This document shows positions 18,695-29,691 of a stretch of DNA of 64,000 nucleotides, in pieces. How positions within the stretch are numbered: the first letter of the stretch is position 1; each line of letters opens with the position of its first letter. The position numbers and the translations under genes are program-made. Under the pieces are notes generated by a model. The model did no database searches, was not told the DNA's origin, and saw only the letters and a program-made list of their open reading frames with translations. The stretch is taken from NCBI RefSeq assembly GCF_944324745.1, contig NZ_CALUXO010000056.1:1-64000 (forward strand), in the 5' to 3' direction. Origin of the DNA: an uncultured Thomasclavelia sp. Lineage in GTDB: Bacteria > Bacillota_I > Bacilli_A > Erysipelotrichales > Coprobacillaceae.

Positions 18695-18829
18695 ATACAA
18701 CTACCTCACTAAATACTACTTTAGCATAATCAAACAATATCCTCAAATAAAAAAGTAAATTTTGTCGATTTTACCAAAAAGTAAAAAAATAAAAAAAATA
18801 CTTACATAAGTTATTTTTTTATGTTAGTA

Positions 18830-18930
18830 TCTATAACCGCATTACATAGATTAAATAATGGTAGTGATGATTTGGTCATTTGGCTAAAATTGTAGCGAAA
18901 GTTATGGTTTAGACAAATGACTATTTTTAT
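18830..18930 (+). promoter_or_regulatory. Leader RNA motif copy A, upstream of DUF2798 gene
   Basis: The 5' region of the DUF2798 gene carries GTCATTTG (18875-18882)/CAAATGAC (18914-18921), inner CTAAA/TTTAG (18884-18888/18908-18912) and the core ATTGTAGCGAAAGTTA (18889-18904), ending in TATTTTTATT just before the ribosome site. A matching motif lies before the V-ATPase operon (copy B): 15 of 16 core bases are identical while the flanking stems differ in sequence but keep pairing. TTACAT (18802-18807), 17 bp, extended TGTTAGTAT (18822-18830) is a candidate promoter with the same geometry as in copy B. In addition TCTA-AACC (18830-18838) can pair with GGTTTAGA (18906-18913). Best read as a cis-regulatory RNA. 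Confidence 0.6.
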
Positions 18931-18946
18931 TAAGGAGGAGAGTTTT

Positions 18947-19405
18947 ATGCCAACAAATAAAAAAGAAAGTTTAATTTTTACAATCTTTATGTGTGCATTT
19001 ATGGTTTTTTGGATGAGTGTTTATAATGTGAGCTTACATGTAGGTTTTACTATGACATCTATCAAGGAAGCATGGTTAGGATTCCCACTAGCTTATTTAT
19101 TTGCAATCTTGTGTGATTGGTTTATTGTTTCTAAAATAGCTAAGTTTTTTGCTTTTAAAATTGTTAGTTATCAAAGTAAAGATATCTTTAAAATTTTGAC
19201 AATATCATTTTTCATGGTTTGTGGAATGGTGTTGTTGATGTCTTTATATGGGGCTTTGGAACAAAATGGGTTAGGTCATAATTTATTACAAGTTTATTTA
19301 ATGAATGTTGTTCGTAATTTTGTTGTGGCTTTACCGTTACAATTTGTAATTGCAGGGCCATTTATTCGCCGAGTTTTTGGAATTTTAATGGAAGCTGATA
19401 ATTAA
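18947..19405 (+). CDS. DUF2798 family membrane protein
   Basis: A 152-residue polytopic protein with four predicted membrane helices arranged as two similar halves (residues about 10-75 and 85-150), each with the FxxFMxxxMxxMSxY-like pattern of DUF2798. Function is unknown. AAGGAGG at 18932-18938 fixes ATG 18947; the longer frame from 18917 has no ribosome site and lies in the leader RNA. Its shared leader motif with the V-ATPase operon suggests co-regulation, perhaps with ion homeostasis, which is inference only. Confidence 0.8.
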   Translation: MPTNKKESLIFTIFMCAFMVFWMSVYNVSLHVGFTMTSIKEAWLGFPLAYLFAILCDWFIVSKIAKFFAFKIVSYQSKDIFKILTISFFMVCGMVLLMSLYGALEQNGLGHNLLQVYLMNVVRNFVVALPLQFVIAGPFIRRVFGILMEADN

Positions 19406-19493
19406 TGAAAAAAACTTTCCAATTTTAGGAAAAATGTAATTCTTTAGTTTTTAAGTGTTAAAATAAAAAAATCAGGTAAAAATAAAAAAGTTC

Positions 19494-19620
19494 TTACATT
19501 GATATTTGTTTTGTGTTAACATTGATTGACTCGTTTTAAAGATTGCATATCAAAGTGAAAATTAAGTCGATTGATGTAGATTGTAGCCAAAGTTAGATCT
19601 AGAGTCAATCGCTTTTAATT
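19494..19620 (+). promoter_or_regulatory. Leader RNA motif copy B, upstream of V-ATPase operon
   Basis: Part of the 426-base gap before the V-ATPase genes. CGATTGA (19568-19574) pairs with TCAATCG (19605-19611), inner TAG/CTA (19577-19579/19599-19601), and the core is ATTGTAGCCAAAGTTA (19580-19595), differing from copy A at one position. A competing pairing exists: GATTGACTC (19524-19532) is perfectly complementary to GAGTCAATC (19602-19610), so the 3' strand can switch partners. Candidate promoter: TTACAT (19494-19499), 17 bp, extended TGTTAACAT (19514-19522). If that promoter is right, the first bases of the switching strand lie at the start site. A riboswitch-like control element is the best explanation. 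Confidence 0.6.
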
Positions 19621-19735
19621 TATTAAAAAATGAGTCAAATTTTAAAGACAGCAGATATTTTGGAACAATTTTGTTATTTAGTGTAGCAATTGACGTTACA
19701 ATTTAAAATATATCATTAAGATTATGGTTAACTAT

Positions 19736-19763
19736 AAAAATTTATTATTAATAAATTTTTTTT
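19736..19763 (+). terminator. AT-only terminator between leader copy B and the V-ATPase promoter
   Basis: AAAAATTTATTA (19736-19747) and TAATAAATTTTT (19749-19760) form a near-perfect palindrome followed by more T's. With no G/C the hairpin is weak, but its position after the leader motif suits conditional or partial termination. Confidence 0.45.
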
Positions 19764-19782
19764 ATATGATATATTATTATCG

Positions 19783-19810
19783 TTGCATTTTAAAAATTTA
19801 GGAGTATACT
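19783..19810 (+). promoter_or_regulatory. Proximal V-ATPase promoter
   Basis: TTGCAT (-35, 19783-19788), 16-bp spacer, TATACT (-10, 19805-19810), about 28 bases before the first V-ATPase start codon. Its presence downstream of leader copy B implies two promoters for the operon, only the distal one controlled by the RNA element. Confidence 0.6.
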
Positions 19811-19837
19811 AAACACAAGTAAAGGGGGATTATGTTT

Positions 19838-20146
19838 ATGGATGATGTAATTCAAAGATTAGTCGACGTAGATCGCGAATGTGTTAAACGTGTTGAAGCG
19901 GCTAAAGCGAAGAAATTAGATGCTCAAACTAACATGAACGCTAAAAGACAAGAGATTTACGATAGCTTTGTTAAAGAACAAAATCAGCAGATTGAAAAAC
20001 ATAAAGAAGAATTAATGGACAAAAACAAAGCTGATGCTAAACAACTAGAACAAAACTATCAAGAAACACTGGCAAAAATCGAAAAACTTTACAACGAAAA
20101 TAAAGATCGTTGGGTAGACGAGATTGTTACAAGGTGTTTAAAGTAA
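19838..20146 (+). CDS. ntpF: V-type ATPase peripheral-stalk subunit (G/H-like, NtpF)
   Basis: A 102-residue, highly charged, coiled-coil protein at the head of the V-ATPase operon. Length, Lys/Glu/Gln richness and position match the stalk subunit that pairs with subunit E to hold the catalytic head against subunit I. ATG 19838 is nine bases after AAAGGGGG; the alternative ATG 19832 would be only three bases away. Low-complexity helical sequence limits certainty on homology, but the operon position is convincing. Confidence 0.8.
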   Translation: MDDVIQRLVDVDRECVKRVEAAKAKKLDAQTNMNAKRQEIYDSFVKEQNQQIEKHKEELMDKNKADAKQLEQNYQETLAKIEKLYNENKDRWVDEIVTRCLK

Positions 20147-20160
20147 GAAGGTGAAAAAAT

Positions 20161-21192
20161 ATGGCTTTATCGTCAAATGCTTTATGTGCTAAAGCAAAGG
20201 CAATGTATGGCAACCGTCTAAAAGAAGAAGCTTATAGCGAATTATGTCGTAAACAGACACTTGGTGATATGGTCACTTATTTAAAAACGCAAACGAATTA
20301 TAGTGATGCATTAAAAGAATTGAATGTGCGTAATGTTCACCGTCATCAACTTGAAGCTGCTTTAAATAAAGAGTATTTCAATAGATGTGCCCGGTTGATG
20401 AAATATGCACCAGCTAAAAATCTCGATTTTTATCGTCAGGAAATTGTGGCGATTGAAGTAGATTTGATTGTTGATAAAATTATCAGTATTAAAGAACAAG
20501 ATCAGGCTAGTTTTTCTCTGGAAATTCCTGATTATTTAGCCAATAAGATGAGTTTTAATATCTATGGGTTAATTAATGTTGATAATTATAAAGATTTAGT
20601 CACTTATTTAAAAAGAACGCGTTATTATCCGATCTTAGTTGATTTTGATTTTACGACGCCGATTGATATCAATGGTTTAGAGCGAAAATTAAAGACTTTA
20701 TATTATCAAGTTTACGTGGAGTTGATAAAAAAATATTTTCGTGGTAAGGAACAAAGAGAACTGTTGGATTTAATCAATACATCGATTGAATTAGCTAATA
20801 TTACTAAGATATATCGCTATAAAAAATACTTTAATGAAACTGAAGAGGCGATCAGAAATTCATTATTCCTTCAATCAGCTCGTATTTCTTTGAAAATGTA
20901 TGATCAGTTGATTGAGTCTCGTGACGCAGAGGCAATGATAAAACTTTTATCTGAATCTAAATATAATGTTTATTTAGGTGAAAATGATTATCCATATATT
21001 GAATATTATATTGAGGAAATTAAATATAATATTGCAAAATGGCATATGCGTTTTTCAGGAAGTGCGCCACTAGTATATTTGACTTATTCGATCCTTCAAA
21101 AGATTGAAATTGATAATTTGAAACATATTATCGAAGGTATCCGATATAAGCGTGACGCTTCAAGTATTGAAGAAACGCTGATTTATGCGTAG
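20161..21192 (+). CDS. ntpC: V-type ATPase subunit C (AC39/d, central stalk socket)
   Basis: A 343-residue AC39-family protein, the conical subunit that couples the central stalk to the membrane c-ring. Helical repeats with conserved patterns such as LKTQTNYSDALKEL, DNYKDLVTYLKRTRYYPILVDFD and the C-terminal YLTYSILQKIEIDNLKHIIEGIRYK tail are typical; the last motif (E.DNL..I..G..) is a family hallmark. It lies 14 bases after ntpF with AGAAGGTG as ribosome site. Confidence 0.9.
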   Translation: MALSSNALCAKAKAMYGNRLKEEAYSELCRKQTLGDMVTYLKTQTNYSDALKELNVRNVHRHQLEAALNKEYFNRCARLMKYAPAKNLDFYRQEIVAIEVDLIVDKIISIKEQDQASFSLEIPDYLANKMSFNIYGLINVDNYKDLVTYLKRTRYYPILVDFDFTTPIDINGLERKLKTLYYQVYVELIKKYFRGKEQRELLDLINTSIELANITKIYRYKKYFNETEEAIRNSLFLQSARISLKMYDQLIESRDAEAMIKLLSESKYNVYLGENDYPYIEYYIEEIKYNIAKWHMRFSGSAPLVYLTYSILQKIEIDNLKHIIEGIRYKRDASSIEETLIYA

Positions 21193-21202
21193 GAGGATTA
21201 TT

Positions 21203-22564
21203 ATGGCAATTATAAAAACCCATTTCTTTAATGTCTCTTTTGAATTTAAAGATTTAATCAAGATATTGATTAAAATGACGGAATATCAAGATGATTTATT
21301 TCCTCAAGATTCAAAAAAGATAGTAAATAATGTAAAAGGGGTCTCAGTCATGGATCAAACTAATCCATATAATGAACCACTTGACAATTTATATCATGTC
21401 TTGGATCGCTTACATATTAGCAGTAATGTCCAAGATCAAGAATATAAAGAAATAAATCTATCATCAGTTAATAATCTGATTGAAGAAATTAATACTCAAA
21501 TTGATAGCATTGTTGATATTAAGGAGAATATTTTAAAAGAGAAAGATGAAAATGATCAGGCAATCATCGTGCTTAAAAATTTAAAAGATTCTAATATTAG
21601 TGTTGATGATGTTAAAAATACTAAGTTTATTACTTGTCGTTTTGGACGGATTCCAATCGGTGAGTTTGATAAAATAAAATACTATCGTGATTATGAGTTT
21701 GTTTTTAAAGAATTAAAGCGAACTAAACAATATGTATGGATTGTATATGTTGGTTTAACAAAAAATATTTATGAAATTGATAATGCTTTTTCTTCAATGG
21801 CATTTGAGTTGATCGAATTACCAGATTTTGCTCACGGTAAAATCGATGAAGCTATTGCGATGTTAGAAGAAGAATCAGCTGCAATGGAAAAATATATCGA
21901 AAAAACAGCTGAAAAGCTTGAAGGGGTTAAAAACAAATATCAATCACAATTATTAGAGATGTTTACTCAAGTATATAATTTAAAGAAATTATATGATAAA
22001 TGTTGTTATGTGGTCGATTTATCACATAAAGGAGCCATTTATCTCTTCACTAGTCTCGAACTTAAAGATGTTCAGGCGCGTTTTGATGATATTGATAGTG
22101 TCAAAATCATTGAACTTCCTGCAAATATCTATGAAAATAGAAATATTGTCGCACCAGTATTTACAAAGAATAACTGGTTAAGTCAACCTTTTGAAAATAT
22201 TTTATCAATCCAGACAGGAGATCGTTTTGATCCAACAATGCTTGTAGCATTGATGACACTAATTATTGGTGCTGTTTGTTTAGGTGATATTGGAGTTGGA
22301 TTATTTTTGATTATTTTAGGATTTCTTGTAATGATCAAAGGTCCTAATAATTTTGGTAAGATTTTAAAGAGAGTTGGTCTAGCTGTCTTGATTGGCGGTT
22401 TAGTTTATGGAACTTTCTTTTATCAAATCGAAGTTTATCCAGCCATTGTCGAAATGCCGATTCATATCATCCATACATTGATTTTTGGTGTTGGGATTTG
22501 GGTTGTATTAATAGTAGTGTTGCTAATTACTAAAAAGGTTATGCGCAGGTCGATTAAAGTGTAG
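21203..22564 (+). CDS. V-type ATPase subunit I-like protein, shortened membrane domain
   Basis: A 453-residue paralogue of subunit I (a). The N-terminal cytoplasmic arm (about residues 1-330) is full length and ends in NNWLSQPFENI…FDPTMLVALM, aligning by eye with NNWFSKPFRMF…DADPTMLVALS of the next gene. The membrane part has only about four helices (350-445) and stops before the segment carrying the essential arginines of the ion half-channel. It therefore cannot conduct ions by itself in the usual way. AGGAGG fixes ATG 21203, eleven bases after the ntpC stop. Its tandem place before a complete subunit I suggests a specialised structural or regulatory copy, or a decaying duplicate, though the frame is intact. 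Confidence 0.82.
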   Translation: MAIIKTHFFNVSFEFKDLIKILIKMTEYQDDLFPQDSKKIVNNVKGVSVMDQTNPYNEPLDNLYHVLDRLHISSNVQDQEYKEINLSSVNNLIEEINTQIDSIVDIKENILKEKDENDQAIIVLKNLKDSNISVDDVKNTKFITCRFGRIPIGEFDKIKYYRDYEFVFKELKRTKQYVWIVYVGLTKNIYEIDNAFSSMAFELIELPDFAHGKIDEAIAMLEEESAAMEKYIEKTAEKLEGVKNKYQSQLLEMFTQVYNLKKLYDKCCYVVDLSHKGAIYLFTSLELKDVQARFDDIDSVKIIELPANIYENRNIVAPVFTKNNWLSQPFENILSIQTGDRFDPTMLVALMTLIIGAVCLGDIGVGLFLIILGFLVMIKGPNNFGKILKRVGLAVLIGGLVYGTFFYQIEVYPAIVEMPIHIIHTLIFGVGIWVVLIVVLLITKKVMRRSIKV

Positions 22565-22576
22565 AGGAGGGATAAA

Positions 22577-24469
22577 ATGTCAATTGCAAAATTGGACCTA
22601 CTCAGTATTATCTTTGATAAAGAGCACTATAACGATGTACTGTTAAAGTTGTTTGATCATGATGATTTTCATCCAGAACTGGCAACTAAGTTTATTGATA
22701 CAGTTACAGGTTTATCGGTTTATAATCAGGATAATTTATATGAGGAGATCTTAGTACGACTAACAGATGCCGCCAACAAATATCAGTTTGAATTAAAAGA
22801 AATACCGGTCAAAAATAACCAGATCAATGTCTTAGGAGTAAAAGAATATCTTGACGACTTATTGTTAGATGTTGAAAGAATTGATGCGGTTAGAGTTCAG
22901 CTTGAAAGAATGATCGTTGAAAATCAAGAAGCGGTAATTCAATTAAAGCATGTTGCTGATATTGATGTGGATTTTGATGATTTGTTTAGTCTTAAGTATC
23001 TAAAAATTAGATTTGGGAAGATTCCAGTAAATAATGTCAATAAGTTAAATTATTATGAATCATTACCATTTGTTTTTAGAGGGTTTGAAAATGATGGGCA
23101 TTTTGTCTGGTGTATGTATATTACAACACCTAGTGATGCTCCAGAAGTTGATAATATCTTTTCATCACTATATTTTGAACGAATTCATATTCCAACCTTT
23201 GTTCACGGTTCTCCAGAATTAGCGATTGGAGAAATTGAAGAAGAAGCACGAGTTGCCAAAGAACAAAGTGTTAAATTAAAACAAAGAATTGATAAGATGT
23301 TTGCTGATGATAAAGACAAGTTAAATGAAATTTATACGATTTCTAAACATTTAAATGATGTTGCCGTTATGCAAAAATATGTAGTTGTCATTGGTGATAA
23401 ATTATCAGTTAATGGTTTTGTTCCAAGCAGACAATCAAAGAAATTTAAGGAAGATTTTGAACAGATTGAAAATGTGCTTGTTGATATTAAACCAGCTAAT
23501 AGCGATGCACGGTTAGAACCGCCAACATTACTTAGAAATAACTGGTTTTCAAAACCGTTTAGAATGTTCGTTGAGATGTACGGAGTTCCTAAATATAACG
23601 ATGCCGACCCAACGATGTTAGTAGCTCTTTCATATACCTTGTTATTTGGTATTATGTTTGGTGACGTTGGTCAGGGAGCTATTTTATCGATCGTAGGTTT
23701 TATTGCCTATAAGAAATTTAAATTAGGCTTAGGAGCCGTGGGAATGCGTTTAGGAATTTCCAGTATGATTTTTGGAGTGGTATTTGGTTCAGTATTTGGT
23801 AGTGAAGAAATATTAATTCCAATGTTTAATGCCATGTCACCAGATAATACAATGACATTATTGATTGCTGCAATATGTTTAGGAATTATCTTGATTGTGA
23901 TTTCAATGGCGTTTAATGTTCTTTTGAATTTTAAGAAAAAGAATTATGGCGAAGCAATCTTAAGTCAAAATGGAGTATGTGGTTTATTGTTCTATATTTC
24001 TATTTTAGGCTTAGTTGTAAATATGTTTTTAGGATTAGGATTAGTTAATATCTTTTATGTATTGATCTTAATCGTTGTTCCTTTACTATTAATTTTCTTA
24101 AAGGAACCTTTAATTCGAAAATTTGAAGAAAATGAAAAAATGTTCCCTAATGGATTTGGTGCCTTTTTTGTTGAGGGATTCTTCGAATTATTCGAAGTTG
24201 TGCTATCATTTGTCACTAACACCATGTCATTTCTAAGGGTAGGGGGATTCGTTTTATCGCATGCCGGAATGATGTTGGTTGTATATACTCTAGCTGAAAT
24301 GGTTGGAGGCGTTGGTGAATATATCGTTATCATTCTTGGTAACGTATTTGTAATGTGTCTTGAAGGACTAATTGTCGGAATTCAAGTGTTACGTCTCGAG
24401 TTCTACGAAATGTTTAGTAGATACTATGAAGGTAACGGAACAGCATTTAGAACTATTAAAGAGGATTAA
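22577..24469 (+). CDS. ntpI: V-type ATPase subunit I (a subunit, ion half-channels)
   Basis: A 630-residue complete subunit I. The cytoplasmic arm with coiled coils (about 1-335) is followed by a membrane domain with about seven to eight helices. GDVGQGAIL, the key SFLRVGGFVLSHAG segment with R554, and QVLRLEFYEMFSRYYEGNG with R606 correspond to the two arginines needed in E. hirae NtpI for ion release from the c-ring glutamate. GAGGAGGG fixes ATG 22577. This copy is the one expected to form the working pump with NtpK. Confidence 0.93.
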   Translation: MSIAKLDLLSIIFDKEHYNDVLLKLFDHDDFHPELATKFIDTVTGLSVYNQDNLYEEILVRLTDAANKYQFELKEIPVKNNQINVLGVKEYLDDLLLDVERIDAVRVQLERMIVENQEAVIQLKHVADIDVDFDDLFSLKYLKIRFGKIPVNNVNKLNYYESLPFVFRGFENDGHFVWCMYITTPSDAPEVDNIFSSLYFERIHIPTFVHGSPELAIGEIEEEARVAKEQSVKLKQRIDKMFADDKDKLNEIYTISKHLNDVAVMQKYVVVIGDKLSVNGFVPSRQSKKFKEDFEQIENVLVDIKPANSDARLEPPTLLRNNWFSKPFRMFVEMYGVPKYNDADPTMLVALSYTLLFGIMFGDVGQGAILSIVGFIAYKKFKLGLGAVGMRLGISSMIFGVVFGSVFGSEEILIPMFNAMSPDNTMTLLIAAICLGIILIVISMAFNVLLNFKKKNYGEAILSQNGVCGLLFYISILGLVVNMFLGLGLVNIFYVLILIVVPLLLIFLKEPLIRKFEENEKMFPNGFGAFFVEGFFELFEVVLSFVTNTMSFLRVGGFVLSHAGMMLVVYTLAEMVGGVGEYIVIILGNVFVMCLEGLIVGIQVLRLEFYEMFSRYYEGNGTAFRTIKED

Positions 24470-24485
24470 AGTTGAGGAGGAAGTC

Positions 24486-24920
24486 ATGATGACAGTTTTA
24501 GAATTTATTTTACCAGCATTAGTAGTTATTTTATTATCTTTACCATTAATTTCTGTATTTAAAGGAAAAGCAAGTGTTAAATCTGCAAAAATCAGATTAG
24601 GAACACATATTGCCGGATTTGCCGGAGCTGTATGTTTAGCATTATATTTAGCAGCTGCTACAAACGGAGTACATGCCGCTGAAGCTGCTTCAATCACTGG
24701 AACAATTGCTCAAGGGTTAGGTTTCTTAGCTGCTGCATTATCTACTGGTTTATCAGCATTAGGTGCTGGTATTGCCGTTGCTGCTGCTGCACCTGCTGCT
24801 ATCGGAGCATTCTCTGAAAATGAAAAGAACTTTGGTAAATCATTAATTTTCGTAGCCTTAGGTGAAGGGGTTGCTATCTACGGTTTATTAATTTCAATCT
24901 TAATTATCAATAACCTTTAA
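24486..24920 (+). CDS. ntpK: V-type ATPase subunit K (c-ring proteolipid)
   Basis: A 144-residue proteolipid with four membrane helices. Helices 1-2 form a hairpin with a basic loop (KGKASVKSAKIR); helices 3-4 carry the ion site, Glu127 in FVALGEGVAIYGLL, with LSTGLSALGAGIAVA facing it. Relative to E. hirae NtpK, the Gln of the Na+ site on helix 3 and the Thr after the Glu are replaced by small residues (A/V and G), so Na+ specificity is doubtful and H+ is possible. GAGGAGG before ATG 24486 (or 24489) fixes the start; the longer open frame from 24372 only overlaps ntpI. Confidence 0.92.
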   Translation: MMTVLEFILPALVVILLSLPLISVFKGKASVKSAKIRLGTHIAGFAGAVCLALYLAAATNGVHAAEAASITGTIAQGLGFLAAALSTGLSALGAGIAVAAAAPAAIGAFSENEKNFGKSLIFVALGEGVAIYGLLISILIINNL

Positions 24921-24939
24921 TTGAAAGAATGTGATCATT

Positions 24940-25248
24940 ATGCGATTTTATTGTATAAGTGATAATGTCGATACCCAAATTGGACTGAGATTAGTCGGAA
25001 TTGAAGGTGAAGTTGTTCATAAGCGTCGTGAATTTCTAGAATTACTAGAAGAAAAATTAAAAGATGATTCAATTGGAATTATCTTAATTACGACTAAATT
25101 AATTGAACTTGCACCGGATGTTATCTCAGAAATCAAGTTAAAACAACATAAACCATTGCTGGTGGAGATACCGGATCGTCATGGTGATTCAAAAATTGGT
25201 GAAACAATCGACCGGTATGTTTCTGAAGCAATTGGGGTTAAGTTATAG
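24940..25248 (+). CDS. ntpG: V-type ATPase subunit F (NtpG, central stalk)
   Basis: A 102-residue small alpha/beta protein matching the V-ATPase F subunit: an N-terminal ISDNVDTQIGLRLVGIEG (the D..T..GF/L.L.G pattern), GIILITTKLIEL in the centre and KHKPLLVEIPDRHG before the C-terminal helix. It binds subunit D in the rotor. A GTG at 24931 is in frame, but ATG 24940 fits the family start (MRFYCISDN). The ribosome site (GAAAG) is weak, consistent with coupling to ntpK 19 bases upstream. Confidence 0.88.
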   Translation: MRFYCISDNVDTQIGLRLVGIEGEVVHKRREFLELLEEKLKDDSIGIILITTKLIELAPDVISEIKLKQHKPLLVEIPDRHGDSKIGETIDRYVSEAIGVKL

Positions 25249-25260
25249 AAGGGGAATGCT

Positions 25261-25857
25261 ATGGAAAAAAAAGAACAAGTATTTCTTTATATGAAAGAAG
25301 AAATTGAAAGACTCGCAAGCCAAGAAGAAGAAGAAATTTTAAAAGAAGCTAAAGATTTGGAAGAACAAGCTTATAACCAAATTAAAGCTGAAGCTAAAAA
25401 AGATGCTCAAGTTTTATTAGAAAAAGAAATTGCTGAAATTTCTTCTAATGCTAGCGTTGAAGCTTCAATGTCTCAAGAAGAAAGAACTAAAAAATTAGTT
25501 GCCAAACGTGATGAATACGTTGCTAATATTTTTAATGAAGCAAAAGATAAATTAGTTGCTTTTGTAAACAGCGATAAATATCATGATTATTTAGTTAGCC
25601 ATGTTAAAGAAACTGGAGCTACTTATCAAATGGAAAATTCAGTACTTTATCTTAGAAGTGCAGATATGGCTTTTAAAGATGACCTGGTTAAAGCTTATGG
25701 TTATGATATTGAAGTCAAAGAAAGCAATCAAATCAAAATTGGTGGTTTTATTATTGAAAATACGATTACAAATGTCGTTGTTGATGAATCATTAGACTTT
25801 GCTTTAGAGAATCAAAAAGACTGGTTCTATAAAACATCAGGATTAATGATTAAATAA
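25261..25857 (+). CDS. ntpE: V-type ATPase subunit E (peripheral stalk)
   Basis: A 198-residue subunit with a long Glu/Lys coiled coil (about 1-100), which pairs with the NtpF-like subunit, and a compact C-terminal domain (about 105-198; LRSADMAFKDDLVKAYGYDIEV, IGGFIIEN, VVDESLDFALE) that contacts the catalytic head. The GGFIIEN…D.SL...L pattern is typical of the family. AAGGGG precedes ATG 25261. Confidence 0.9.
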   Translation: MEKKEQVFLYMKEEIERLASQEEEEILKEAKDLEEQAYNQIKAEAKKDAQVLLEKEIAEISSNASVEASMSQEERTKKLVAKRDEYVANIFNEAKDKLVAFVNSDKYHDYLVSHVKETGATYQMENSVLYLRSADMAFKDDLVKAYGYDIEVKESNQIKIGGFIIENTITNVVVDESLDFALENQKDWFYKTSGLMIK

Positions 25858-25872
25858 AACAGGGGGTTAAAT

Positions 25873-27624
25873 ATGAGTAATAATGTAATTTATTCAATCA
25901 ATGGACCCGTTGTCAAAGTAAAAGATACGGTATCATTTTCAATGTTGGAAATGGTCTATGTTGGTAATGATTCATTAATGGGTGAAGTAATTTCGATTTC
26001 TAAAGAATTTACCACAATCCAAGTATATGAAACTACGACCGGTCTTAAACCGGGTGAACCAGTTGTTTCAACTGGTTCGCCTATCTCTGCAACATTGGGC
26101 CCTGGTATTTTAAGAAATATTTTTGATGGAATTGAACGTCCATTACAAGCAATCGAAGAAGAAAGCGGAGCTTTCATTCATGCAGGAAGTAATGTTGATT
26201 CTTTGGATGTTAATAAAAAATGGGATGTAACAGTAGTTGCCAAAGTTGGTGATTATGTTAAAGGTGGCGATATTTATGCTACTACACCAGAAACGGACTT
26301 AATTGTTCATAAATGTATGGTAAGCCCATTAATTAGTGGAAAAGTCGTTGAAGTTGTACCTGATGGTCAATATACGATCAACGATGTAATTATGAAAATT
26401 GAAGATGATGAAGGTAAGATCATCGAATGTACATTGTGTCAAAAATGGCCAATTAAACAACCTCGTCCAACCGCAAAACGTTTACCTATCAGTATTCCAT
26501 TAGTAACGGGACAAAGAGTAATTGATACATCGTTCCCAATTGCTAAAGGTGGAACTGCAGCGATTCCAGGTGGTTTCGGTACTGGAAAAACAATGACCCA
26601 ACACCAGATTGCTAAATGGTGTGATGCTGATATCATCGTTTATGTTGGATGTGGAGAACGTGGTAATGAAATGACTCAGGTTCTAGAGGAATTTAGTGAG
26701 TTGATTGACCCTAAAAGTGGTAAACCATTAACTGATAGAACAGTCTTAATTGCCAATACTTCAAACATGCCAGTTGCGGCGCGTGAAGCAAGTATTTATA
26801 CTGGAATTACTTTAGCTGAATATTATCGTGACATGGGATATCACGTTGCTATCATGGCCGATTCTACATCAAGATGGGCCGAAGCGCTTCGTGAAATTTC
26901 TGGACGTCTAGAAGAAATGCCAGCTGAAGAAGGATTCCCAGCTTATTTACCATCTCGTTTATCACAATTCTATGAACGGGCTGGTTATATGGAAACTTTA
27001 AATGGTCAAGAAGGTTCTGTTTCGATTATCGGAGCCGTTTCTCCTCAAGGAGCTGACTTCTCAGAACCAGTTACTCAAAATACAAAACGTTTCGTTCGTT
27101 GTTTCTGGGCACTAGATAAAGCTTTAGCTTATGCAAGACATTACTTTGCAATTAACTGGACTCAAAGTTATAGTGATTATGTTTACGATCTAGAAAAATG
27201 GTACAATAAAAACGTTAGTCCAAAATTCATTTCTGACCGTCAGGAAATCTCATATATTTTAGCTGAAGAAGCTAAATTAAATGAAATTGTTCAGTTGATG
27301 GGATCTGATGTTTTACCAGAAGATCAAAAATTAGTCATTGAAATTGCTAAAGTAGTTCGTGTCGGGTACTTGCAGCAAAACGCTTTCCATAAAGATGATA
27401 CATATGTACCTTTGGAAAAACAATTAAAGATGATGGAAGTCATTTTATATTTAAATAAACGTTGTAAAGAGGCAGTTGCTCAAGGTAAAGTAGTTCGTCG
27501 AATCGTTGATACAGGAATTTTTGAACAATTGATTCGTATGAAATACGATATTCCTAATGACAATATTGCCAAATTAGATACTTATTATCATGATATTGAT
27601 GAAGCAATCAATTCAGTAGCGTAG
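25873..27624 (+). CDS. ntpA: V-type ATPase catalytic subunit A
   Basis: A 583-residue nucleotide-hydrolysing subunit. It contains the beta-barrel start, the A-specific insert (about 110-200), P-loop GGFGTGKT near residue 233, the catalytic GCGERGNEM with its Glu, and [19 protein letters not shown]. The P-loop begins GG where many V-ATPases have GP; this variant is common in clostridial V-ATPases as I recall. AGGGGG ribosome site precedes ATG 25873. Confidence 0.96.
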
Positions 27625-27637
27625 GAGGAAAATGATT

Positions 27638-29080
27638 ATGTCACTACAATATGTAGGTTTAAGTGAAATTAACGGACCATTAGTCGTTTTAGACCACGTT
27701 AAAGGTGCTTCATACGATGAAATGGTAGAAATTCAAATTAGCGATGGAACAACTAGATCAGGACGTGTTGTTCAAATCGAAGGTGAAAAAGTTGTTGTTC
27801 AGGTTTTTGAAGGAACTAACGGACTTTCACTAGAAAATACTAAAACTAGATTACTTGGAAAACCAATGGAACTTCCAGTTTCTAAAGAAATCTTAGGAAG
27901 AATCTTTGATGGTGCTGGTCGTCCAATCGATGGTTTAGGAGAAATTTATGCCGAAGAAGAAATGGATATCAATGGGCTTCCATTAAACCCAGTAGCTCGT
28001 GTTTATCCACGTAACTATATCAATACTGGTATTTCTTCAATTGACTGTTTGGCTACTTTAATTCGAGGACAGAAGTTACCAATTTTCTCAGTATCTGGTT
28101 TACCTCATGACCGTTTAGCAGTTCAAATTGTTAAACAAGCTAAAATTGCTGATGAATCTGGTCAAGGATTTGCGGTAGTTTTTGCTGCAATGGGGGTAAC
28201 TAATGATGTTGCTGAATATTTTAAACGAAGCTTTAAAGAAGCTGGGGTAATGGAACGAGTGGTAATGTTTTTGAACTTATCAAACGATCCAATTATCGAA
28301 CGTACTTTAACACCACGTTGTGCTTTAACAGCTGCTGAATATTTAGCATTTAAACAAGATATGCATGTTTTAGTAATCTATACTGATGTTACTTCATATT
28401 GTGAAGCTGTTCGTGAATTCTCTTCTAGTAAAGGAGAAATTCCAGGACGTAAAGGATATCCAGGATATTTATATTCTGACTTAGCATCACTTTATGAAAG
28501 AGCTGGTATCATTAAAGGCGCTAAAGGATCAGTTACTCAAATTCCAATCTTAACAATGCCTAACAATGATATTACTCACCCAGTTCCTGACTTAACAGGA
28601 TATATTACTGAAGGGCAAATTACCCTTGATGTTGATTTAAATTCTGCTGGTGTTTATCCACCAGTTGGAGTTTTACCATCACTTAGTCGTTTGATGAAAG
28701 ATGGTATCGGTGAAGGGTATACTCGTGCTGATCATCAAGATATTGCTAACCAGTTATTTGCATGTTATGCCCATGTTCAAGATGTTCGTTCTTTAACATC
28801 AGTTATTGGTGAAGATGAATTATCTGATTTAGATAAAAAATATATTACTTTTGGTAATCTATTTGAACAATATTTCATCAACCAAGGATTTAATACTAAT
28901 CGTAGTATTGAAGAAACATTAGATTTAGGTTGGGATTTAGTTTCTGTTTTACCAAGAGAAGCGTTAGATCGTGTTGATAATGCTTTACTTGATCAATATT
29001 ATAATCATGAAAAAGCAATGCAACGTTTCAATATTCAAGAAAAGAAGATTATTAAAGAATTACAAAGAGAAGGTGAATAG
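27638..29080 (+). CDS. ntpB: V-type ATPase regulatory subunit B
   Basis: A 480-residue non-catalytic nucleotide-site subunit. Motifs: [27 protein letters not shown] (degenerate P-loop as expected for B), [48 protein letters not shown] is three bases before ATG 27632 and nine before ATG 27638, so the second ATG is preferred. Confidence 0.96.
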
Positions 29081-29082
29081 TC

Positions 29083-29691
29083 ATGGCTCTTAAAGTAGTT
29101 CCAACTAAGGGAAATCTAATGGCAATGAAAAAATCATTGGAATTAGCTAACCTTGGTTATAGTCTGATGGATCAAAAACGTAACGTTCTGATTAAAGAAA
29201 TGATGAGCTTATTAGATGATGTAAAAGTAATTCGTGATCAAATTACTTCATCTTATCAAGAAGCTTATGATGCTTTGCAGGAAGCAAATATTTCTCGAGG
29301 TTTAATTAGTGATATTGTCAATGGAATTCCTGAAGATTATGGAATTTCCATTGCTTATCGTAGTGTAATGGGAGTTGAAATTCCTAAAGTTAATTATAAT
29401 AAGCAGCCAATGAAAATGACTTATGATATTGAACGTTCTAATTCAAAAGTTGATTATGCTTATCATTGTTTTTATAAAGTAAAACAATTGACTGTTTTAT
29501 TAGCTGAAGTTGAAAATAGTGTTTATCGTCTTGCTAATACTATTAGAAAGACGCAAAAAAGAGCTAATGCCTTAAAGAATATTTCAATTCCTCGCTTTGA
29601 AACTACAGTAAAAGCAATCACTGAAGCTTTGGAAGAAAAAGAACGTGAAGAATTCACAAGACAAAAAGTAATTAAAGAGACGAAAAAATAG
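29083..29691 (+). CDS. ntpD: V-type ATPase subunit D (rotor shaft)
   Basis: A 202-residue, mostly coiled-coil central shaft subunit that rotates inside the A3B3 head. The start (VPTKGNLMAMKKSLELANLGYSLMDQKRNVL) and end (VYRLANTIRKTQKRANALKNISIPRFETTVKAI…EEKEREEFTRQKVIK) match family landmarks. It is the last gene of the operon, two bases after ntpB, and its stop is part of the terminator stem. Confidence 0.95.
   Translation: MALKVVPTKGNLMAMKKSLELANLGYSLMDQKRNVLIKEMMSLLDDVKVIRDQITSSYQEAYDALQEANISRGLISDIVNGIPEDYGISIAYRSVMGVEIPKVNYNKQPMKMTYDIERSNSKVDYAYHCFYKVKQLTVLLAEVENSVYRLANTIRKTQKRANALKNISIPRFETTVKAITEALEEKEREEFTRQKVIKETKK

Follow-up and report, generated by a model that had tools for sequence, protein, structure and literature searches.

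The stretch of DNA analysed here (64,000 nucleotides, hereafter the window) contains, upstream of the gene for a DUF2798 membrane protein, a leader sequence which, based on comparison with its homologues, should be regarded as a real and conserved cis-regulatory element. In all of its copies, the element is predicted to form an intrinsic-terminator-like hairpin whose tip is far more conserved than its arms, and it is probably a cis-acting transcription attenuator in which the sensing element is embedded within the intrinsic terminator. Due to the small number of its members and the lack of an alternative fold, our confidence in this interpretation is moderate. The two copies in the window (leaders A and B) and their surroundings are described below, together with the homologues from another genome of the same genus (G005) and from a different family of the same order (G029).

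18802..18830, + strand: promoter A, TTACAT-17-TAGTAT with an extended -10 (TGT TAGTAT), from sequence; -35 box at 18802-18807, -10 box at 18825-18830, expected start about 18837
18858..18871, + strand: conserved 5' block of leader A, ATGGTAGTGATGAT, identical in G005 and G029; its 12-base core, GGTAGTGATGAT, at 18860-18871, is identical in A, G005 and G029
18873..18930, + strand: terminator-like hairpin A, stem TGGTCATTTG.CTAAA / TTTAG.CAAATGACTA with a U-rich tail (fold z -5.95; compensating changes relative to G005)
18889..18906, + strand: apical motif A, ATTGTAGCGAAAGTTATG, foldable as UAGC-GAAA-GUUA at the hairpin tip (homologue comparison and folding)
18947..19405, + strand: gene for a 152-aa DUF2798 membrane protein, immediately 3' of leader A (PF11391, E 2e-10; the same protein holds a second, weaker DUF2798 match)
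19494..19522, + strand: promoter B, TTACAT-17-TAACAT with an extended -10 TG, from sequence; -35 box at 19494-19499, -10 box at 19517-19522, expected start about 19529
19553..19563, + strand: diverged 5' block of leader B, AGTGAAAATT, aligned to AGTGATGATT of A
19568..19618, + strand: terminator-like hairpin B, CGATTGA..TAGAT / ATCTA..TCAATCG, with the weaker U tract CUUUUAAUUU (fold z -4.73)
19783..19810, + strand: the V-ATPase operon's own promoter, TTGCAT-16-TATACT, about 165 bp 3' of hairpin B; a near-identical element is present in 8/8 other genomes of the genus
19832..29691, + strand: V/A-type ATPase operon (domain matches and c-subunit comparison; remaining subunits assigned by eye from the translations)

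The motif ATTGTAGC-N-AAAGTTA is present in exactly two copies, viz. at 18889-18904 (copy A) and 19580-19595 (copy B), and these are identical at 15 of their 16 positions, as stated in the initial annotation of this DNA. For the sequence TTGTAGCNAAAGTTA, two exact copies are observed, compared to 0.0014 expected under a first-order Markov model for the whole window and both strands. When leader B was shuffled, a match of 15/16 to A was reached in 1 of 150 shuffles and, due to this, the pair of copies by itself is suggestive; it is the homologues in other genomes, as compared at the sequence level, that make it convincing. The homologue in G005 (75.6 bits) precedes a DUF2798 gene that is 71% identical to that in the window and is likewise located beside the V-ATPase operon, and the homologue in G029 (63.7 bits) precedes a gene for a 469-aa DHA2 MFS pump, for which LmrB is nearest by score and which lies above the cut-off of the EmrB subfamily model. 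In both genomes the leader consists of ATGGTAGTGATGATT, a variable stretch, and ATTGTAGCGAAAGTTATG, with GATGAT separated from ATTGTAGC by 17 nt in both A and G005, and by 12 nt in G029. Between G029 and A about 30 bases in two blocks are identical, whereas the flanks, the spacer and the downstream gene differ. In two families, the element precedes membrane-transport genes and is oriented in the sense direction relative to them.

With R1, a covariance model built from the four copies, the members score 64-76 bits and the next-best matches at most 33 bits, those inspected being located in coding sequence or dissimilar to the motif. Overall, the element is very rare: among several hundred genomes of one class that were sampled, three carry it, with four copies in total. 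No further members were found with R1 in the order, class and 'phylum' genome samples (the latter two apparently drawn from a single class, that of the window), with two patterns in IMG/VR, in plasmids or phages, or among the 118 loci listed from a genome-wide scan that used the 16-mer alone as its query. Within the genus, the window genome (G000) and G005 have both the motif and this DUF2798 gene, and G001-G004, G007 and G008 have neither; the DUF2798 genes that G002, G004 and G007 do carry are distant ones, at other loci and with other leaders, and in G006 the DUF2798 gene is a different one, as is its leader. On the question, raised in the initial annotation, of whether the core is conserved upstream of orthologues, the answer is therefore divided, as the G005 orthologue keeps the motif and most of the relatives lack both the gene and the motif.

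The promoters of leaders A and B are, by sequence, of the sigma-A type with an extended -10 (TG-n-TAnnAT). The matching of these promoters that had been reported earlier is upheld inasmuch as both read TTACAT-17-TAnnAT; however, 17 is the gap to the -10 hexamer, and the gap to the longer string TGTTARYAT, to which it had been assigned, is 14. The reported distance of 58-59 bases agrees with that found between the -10 box and the motif (59 in A and 58 in B). A CTTACAN..TATGNTA layout also precedes many DUF2798 leaders of the family, and the G029 promoter is TTACAT-17-TATCAT. In view of its occurrence before many DUF2798 genes of the family, this promoter layout should be interpreted as a feature of the DUF2798 gene group, and not just of leaders A and B.

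The repeated 16-mer can be folded as a small hairpin, UAGC-NAAA-GUUA, on top of a longer hairpin, and in all four copies (A, B, G005 and G029) the motif is at the tip of a long hairpin followed by a U-rich tract, viz. UAUUUUUAUU in A, UUUUUU in G005 and G029, and CUUUUAAUUU in B. That the flanking stems are well paired, as was also claimed at the outset, is borne out by the fold z values for A and B listed above, which are relative to dinucleotide shuffles (-4.49 for G029). A Shine-Dalgarno sequence and a gene are found soon 3' of the hairpin in A, G005 and G029, with hairpin A ending only a few bases upstream of the Shine-Dalgarno sequence; in copy B, the U tract is weak and a gene is lacking within 200 bp. 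The spacing from the 5' block to the apical motif in B is, by alignment, the same as in A and G005. When the stems of A and G005 are compared, compensating changes are seen that are double in 3 cases and single in 4, and one pair is broken, whereas the tip is unchanged; 97.6% of the cells are paired, compared to at most 45.2% in slid versions. The observed covariation score was reached by 66 of 500 shuffles, and the covariation is thin because there are only four members in three genomes. A simple terminator scan called neither hairpin A nor hairpin B, and in the lowest-energy fold of G029 the conserved bases are paired in another register with an 8-nt loop at the tip. No conserved alternative fold was found, RNAalifold predicting the tip hairpin alone. 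The 5' block can pair with the 5' arm of the terminator in A and G005, and it forms part of the hairpin base in G029; as it has no constant pairing partner across the copies, its conservation is one of sequence and not of pairing. Three features had been absent from the initial annotation: the 5' block, the fact that the core forms the tip of a hairpin resembling a terminator, and the V-ATPase operon's separate promoter.

In these leaders the sigma-A promoter is followed by GGTAGTGATGAT, 12-17 variable bases (comprising most of the 5' arm), the AUUG-UAGC-NAAA-GUUA tip, the variable 3' arm and the U-rich tract. In the attenuator that we favour, the hairpin would by default terminate transcription, and in the presence of a signal the 5' block and the tip would form a compact bound structure that keeps the arms from zipping, so that RNA polymerase could read into the transporter gene. 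The signal would probably be a small molecule, in which case the element is a riboswitch, with an RNA-binding protein as the alternative. The nature of the targets (the DUF2798 protein, the LmrB-like exporter and, possibly by read-through, the V-ATPase) is a hint that the compound may be toxic or related to stress, and not a specific cation. In this model, copy B would likewise be such a device, driven by a separate promoter, although it is more diverged and its U tract is weaker; it may provide the V-ATPase genes, beside their own promoter, with a second regulated input from upstream. A more specific proposal, which we hold tentatively and consider possible without favouring it, is that these leaders constitute a very rare new riboswitch class, with an aptamer built into an intrinsic terminator (5' block plus NAAA-tipped hairpin), which controls the DUF2798 gene, the V-ATPase locus and the LmrB-like exporter, and which is functionally interchangeable, at this DUF2798/V-ATPase locus, with the leader D described below. 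The generic pattern of a riboswitch, a conserved core in distant species before functionally related genes, is present here, although with very few members. If the proposed sensing function is correct, then a hairpin tip and a 12-base block that are frozen across two families would represent an undescribed RNA sensor.

Of the other explanations, the one that fares best, although it is rather unlikely, is a protein-dependent attenuator, where the tip and the 5' block bind an RNA-binding antiterminator or terminator protein and the RNA makes no contact with a small molecule. A small hairpin with a fixed tip, fixed G-U pairs and one fixed block is something that a protein could recognise, and the different pairing of the 5' block in each copy, indicative of conservation by sequence, is also consistent with this. 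However, the element matches no Rfam leader and, among the neighbours annotated, no regulator gene is seen that is common to the loci of G000/G005 and G029, although a trans-acting protein need not be linked. Ribosome-mediated attenuation through a leader peptide, as is seen before some antibiotic-resistance pumps, is improbable. The 5' block does read ATG-GTA-GTG-ATG-ATT (MVVMI...) in A, G005 and G029, in both A and G029 a stop codon closes the frame just 5' of the tip motif, and the G029 target is an LmrB-like pump; but in every copy this ATG lacks a Shine-Dalgarno-like sequence 5' of it, whereas the genes themselves have strong ones, 15 bases are identical across families with zero synonymous changes, copy B has no ATG at the 5' block, and the G005 frame continues through the hairpin to the start of the gene. 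Least probable of all is a DNA operator or an antisense promoter (complement TTGTCT/TTGACT-16/17-TACAAT) with the hairpin as an ordinary terminator, since the two minus-strand sites listed by a promoter scan are to be viewed against 9 promoter-like sites found versus 8.8 expected in shuffles, G029 lacks a -35-like box at that spacing, the conservation reaches past the six -10 bases, and the block spacing of 17 nt in one lineage and 12 in the other differs by half a helical turn.

The initial annotation had viewed these leaders as having the appearance of a riboswitch, with two exclusive folds in copy B, and had suggested a cation or energy-state ligand, pointing to the known Na+- and Li+-sensing classes. 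What remains of this is the shared and conserved cis-regulatory RNA, riboswitch-like in its anatomy and built into a terminator-like hairpin; the two-fold switch in B, the view that B chiefly serves the V-ATPase operon and the Na+/Li+ ligand are not supported. The 9-base pairing between 19524-19532 and 19602-19610 exists, but its upstream arm lies at the boundary between the -10 box and the start site. The usual spacing from the -10 box to the start is 6-8 nt and, as this arm occupies the bases 2-10 past the -10 hexamer (which ends at 19522) and the start is expected at about 19529, most of it should not be part of the RNA. The genus-conserved promoter at 19783-19810, which lies between B and the V-ATPase genes, speaks against B as the main leader of this operon, and copy B is absent from all 8 other genomes of the genus. 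The possibility that B is the leader of a decayed DUF2798 duplicate was also considered and rejected, as 19613-19831 aligns to the gene no better than shuffles. In several members of the genus (loci L159, L160 and L162), a GTAACCC..GGGTTAC-like inverted repeat followed by AGC-GAAAATGA is present upstream of the V-ATPase promoter; this repeat is not seen in G000. Within the operon, two consecutive ORFs of 459 and 630 aa (21185-24469 of the window) both appear, by eye, to encode a/I-type membrane subunits.

A Na+ or Li+ ligand is not supported by the Rfam comparisons. The Sodium family (RF03071) showed no match in the whole genome (a Lactococcus lactis control being positive) or on the leaders at E<=10, the only matches of the leaders to Rfam 15 at this threshold being a snoRNA and an sRNA, both far below gathering. 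Scans at the gathering score revealed tRNAs alone in the window and nothing relevant at the homologous loci. The Li+ nhaA-I and nhaA-II motifs also gave no match in the Rfam 15 scan, as far as their models stand in the library. The third target, a drug-efflux-type MFS pump, likewise does not indicate a Na+/Li+ signal, nor does the c subunit of the ATPase, which matches 5gar/6qum (which we take to be the Thermus subunit) with E 3.7e-11, compared to E 4e-8 for the sodium-type subunit K, 2bl2. Its apparent closeness to the Thermus rather than the Enterococcus Na+ type is weak evidence against a Na+ pump.

Two characterised riboswitches provide useful comparisons. The Na+-I riboswitch (DUF1646 motif, RF03071) precedes V-type ATPase and transporter genes, as does the window element, and can control termination (PMC9337991); however, the architecture described for it, in which there are two stems and the conserved clusters lie in the P2 loop and at the base of P1, is not found in the window leaders. 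The HMP-PP riboswitch (thiS motif) provides a precedent, as it is a terminator with an abnormally conserved loop, an oddity that led to its discovery (PMC6478431). The window element resembles it in having conserved bases inside an otherwise ordinary intrinsic terminator, in its compactness, and in the ON-switch logic (PMC6478431). It differs in that an alternative P1 or pseudoknot could not be demonstrated, in that it has no Rfam match (including to thiS, as far as this model stands in the library), and in that its targets are transporters and a DUF2798 gene and not thiamin genes. In the literature searched, no paper names DUF2798 together with a riboswitch or terminator.

In other genera of the family, a different leader (leader D) precedes the DUF2798 genes; it consists of ATTGG[A/C]AAC, a short junction, a covarying hairpin (P2), another short junction and GAACAACAC. 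It is present in 14 genomes, in 13 of which it adjoins a DUF2798 match and in 1 of which it is upstream of a V-ATPase operon without one. Its loci include the following.

L190, L192, L194, L195, L197, L198, L199, L200, L204, L206, L207, L208: leader D, shortly 5' of DUF2798 genes
G051:C14:31844-31899: leader D

In a manual alignment, the sequence of P2 varies freely, with pairing in 47/48 counted cells, and positions 3 and 4 show three types of pair. A competing terminator-like stem shares bases with the 3' block in several copies, one example being G043 (ACATGTGTGT / ACACACATGT followed by ATTTTTTT). Leader D, which also has no Rfam match, has stronger support as a structured switch than the window element, and is by itself a good candidate for a riboswitch. 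The two are alike in occupying the same spot before DUF2798 beside the V-ATPase operon in several genomes (e.g. G006, which belongs to the genus of the window), in their promoter type, in having two conserved blocks around a variable stem, and in the overlap with a terminator-like stem in several copies. However, their conserved sequences are different, and leader D is found in 14 genomes compared to 3. The possibility that the window element is a diverged leader D was considered and rejected, as the pairwise scores are within those of shuffles and the cross-model searches were negative: the leader D model (R2) misses the window leaders, giving no plus-strand match in 18700-19860 with filters off, and R1 misses D. 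A short 5' similarity between leader B and the G006 leader (TGACTCGTT.., GTGAAAATT) is, at the level of sequence, only suggestive. If both elements function as proposed, then two unrelated RNA sequences would guard one uncharacterised membrane gene beside the V-ATPase, and ligand screening with two independent RNAs would provide a direct handle on the function of the DUF2798 protein and on the signal. Further, more distant DUF2798 genes have other leaders with a hairpin and a T-run, e.g. AGTCGTGTAGCGAATAATATGCAAAGCGTAAT.. and CACTAAATGTCACCTTG.. (L201, L202, L203 and L209, corresponding to G004, G007, G002 and G000:C18; also L189 and L191), and due to this, leader-based control may be general for the DUF2798 family.
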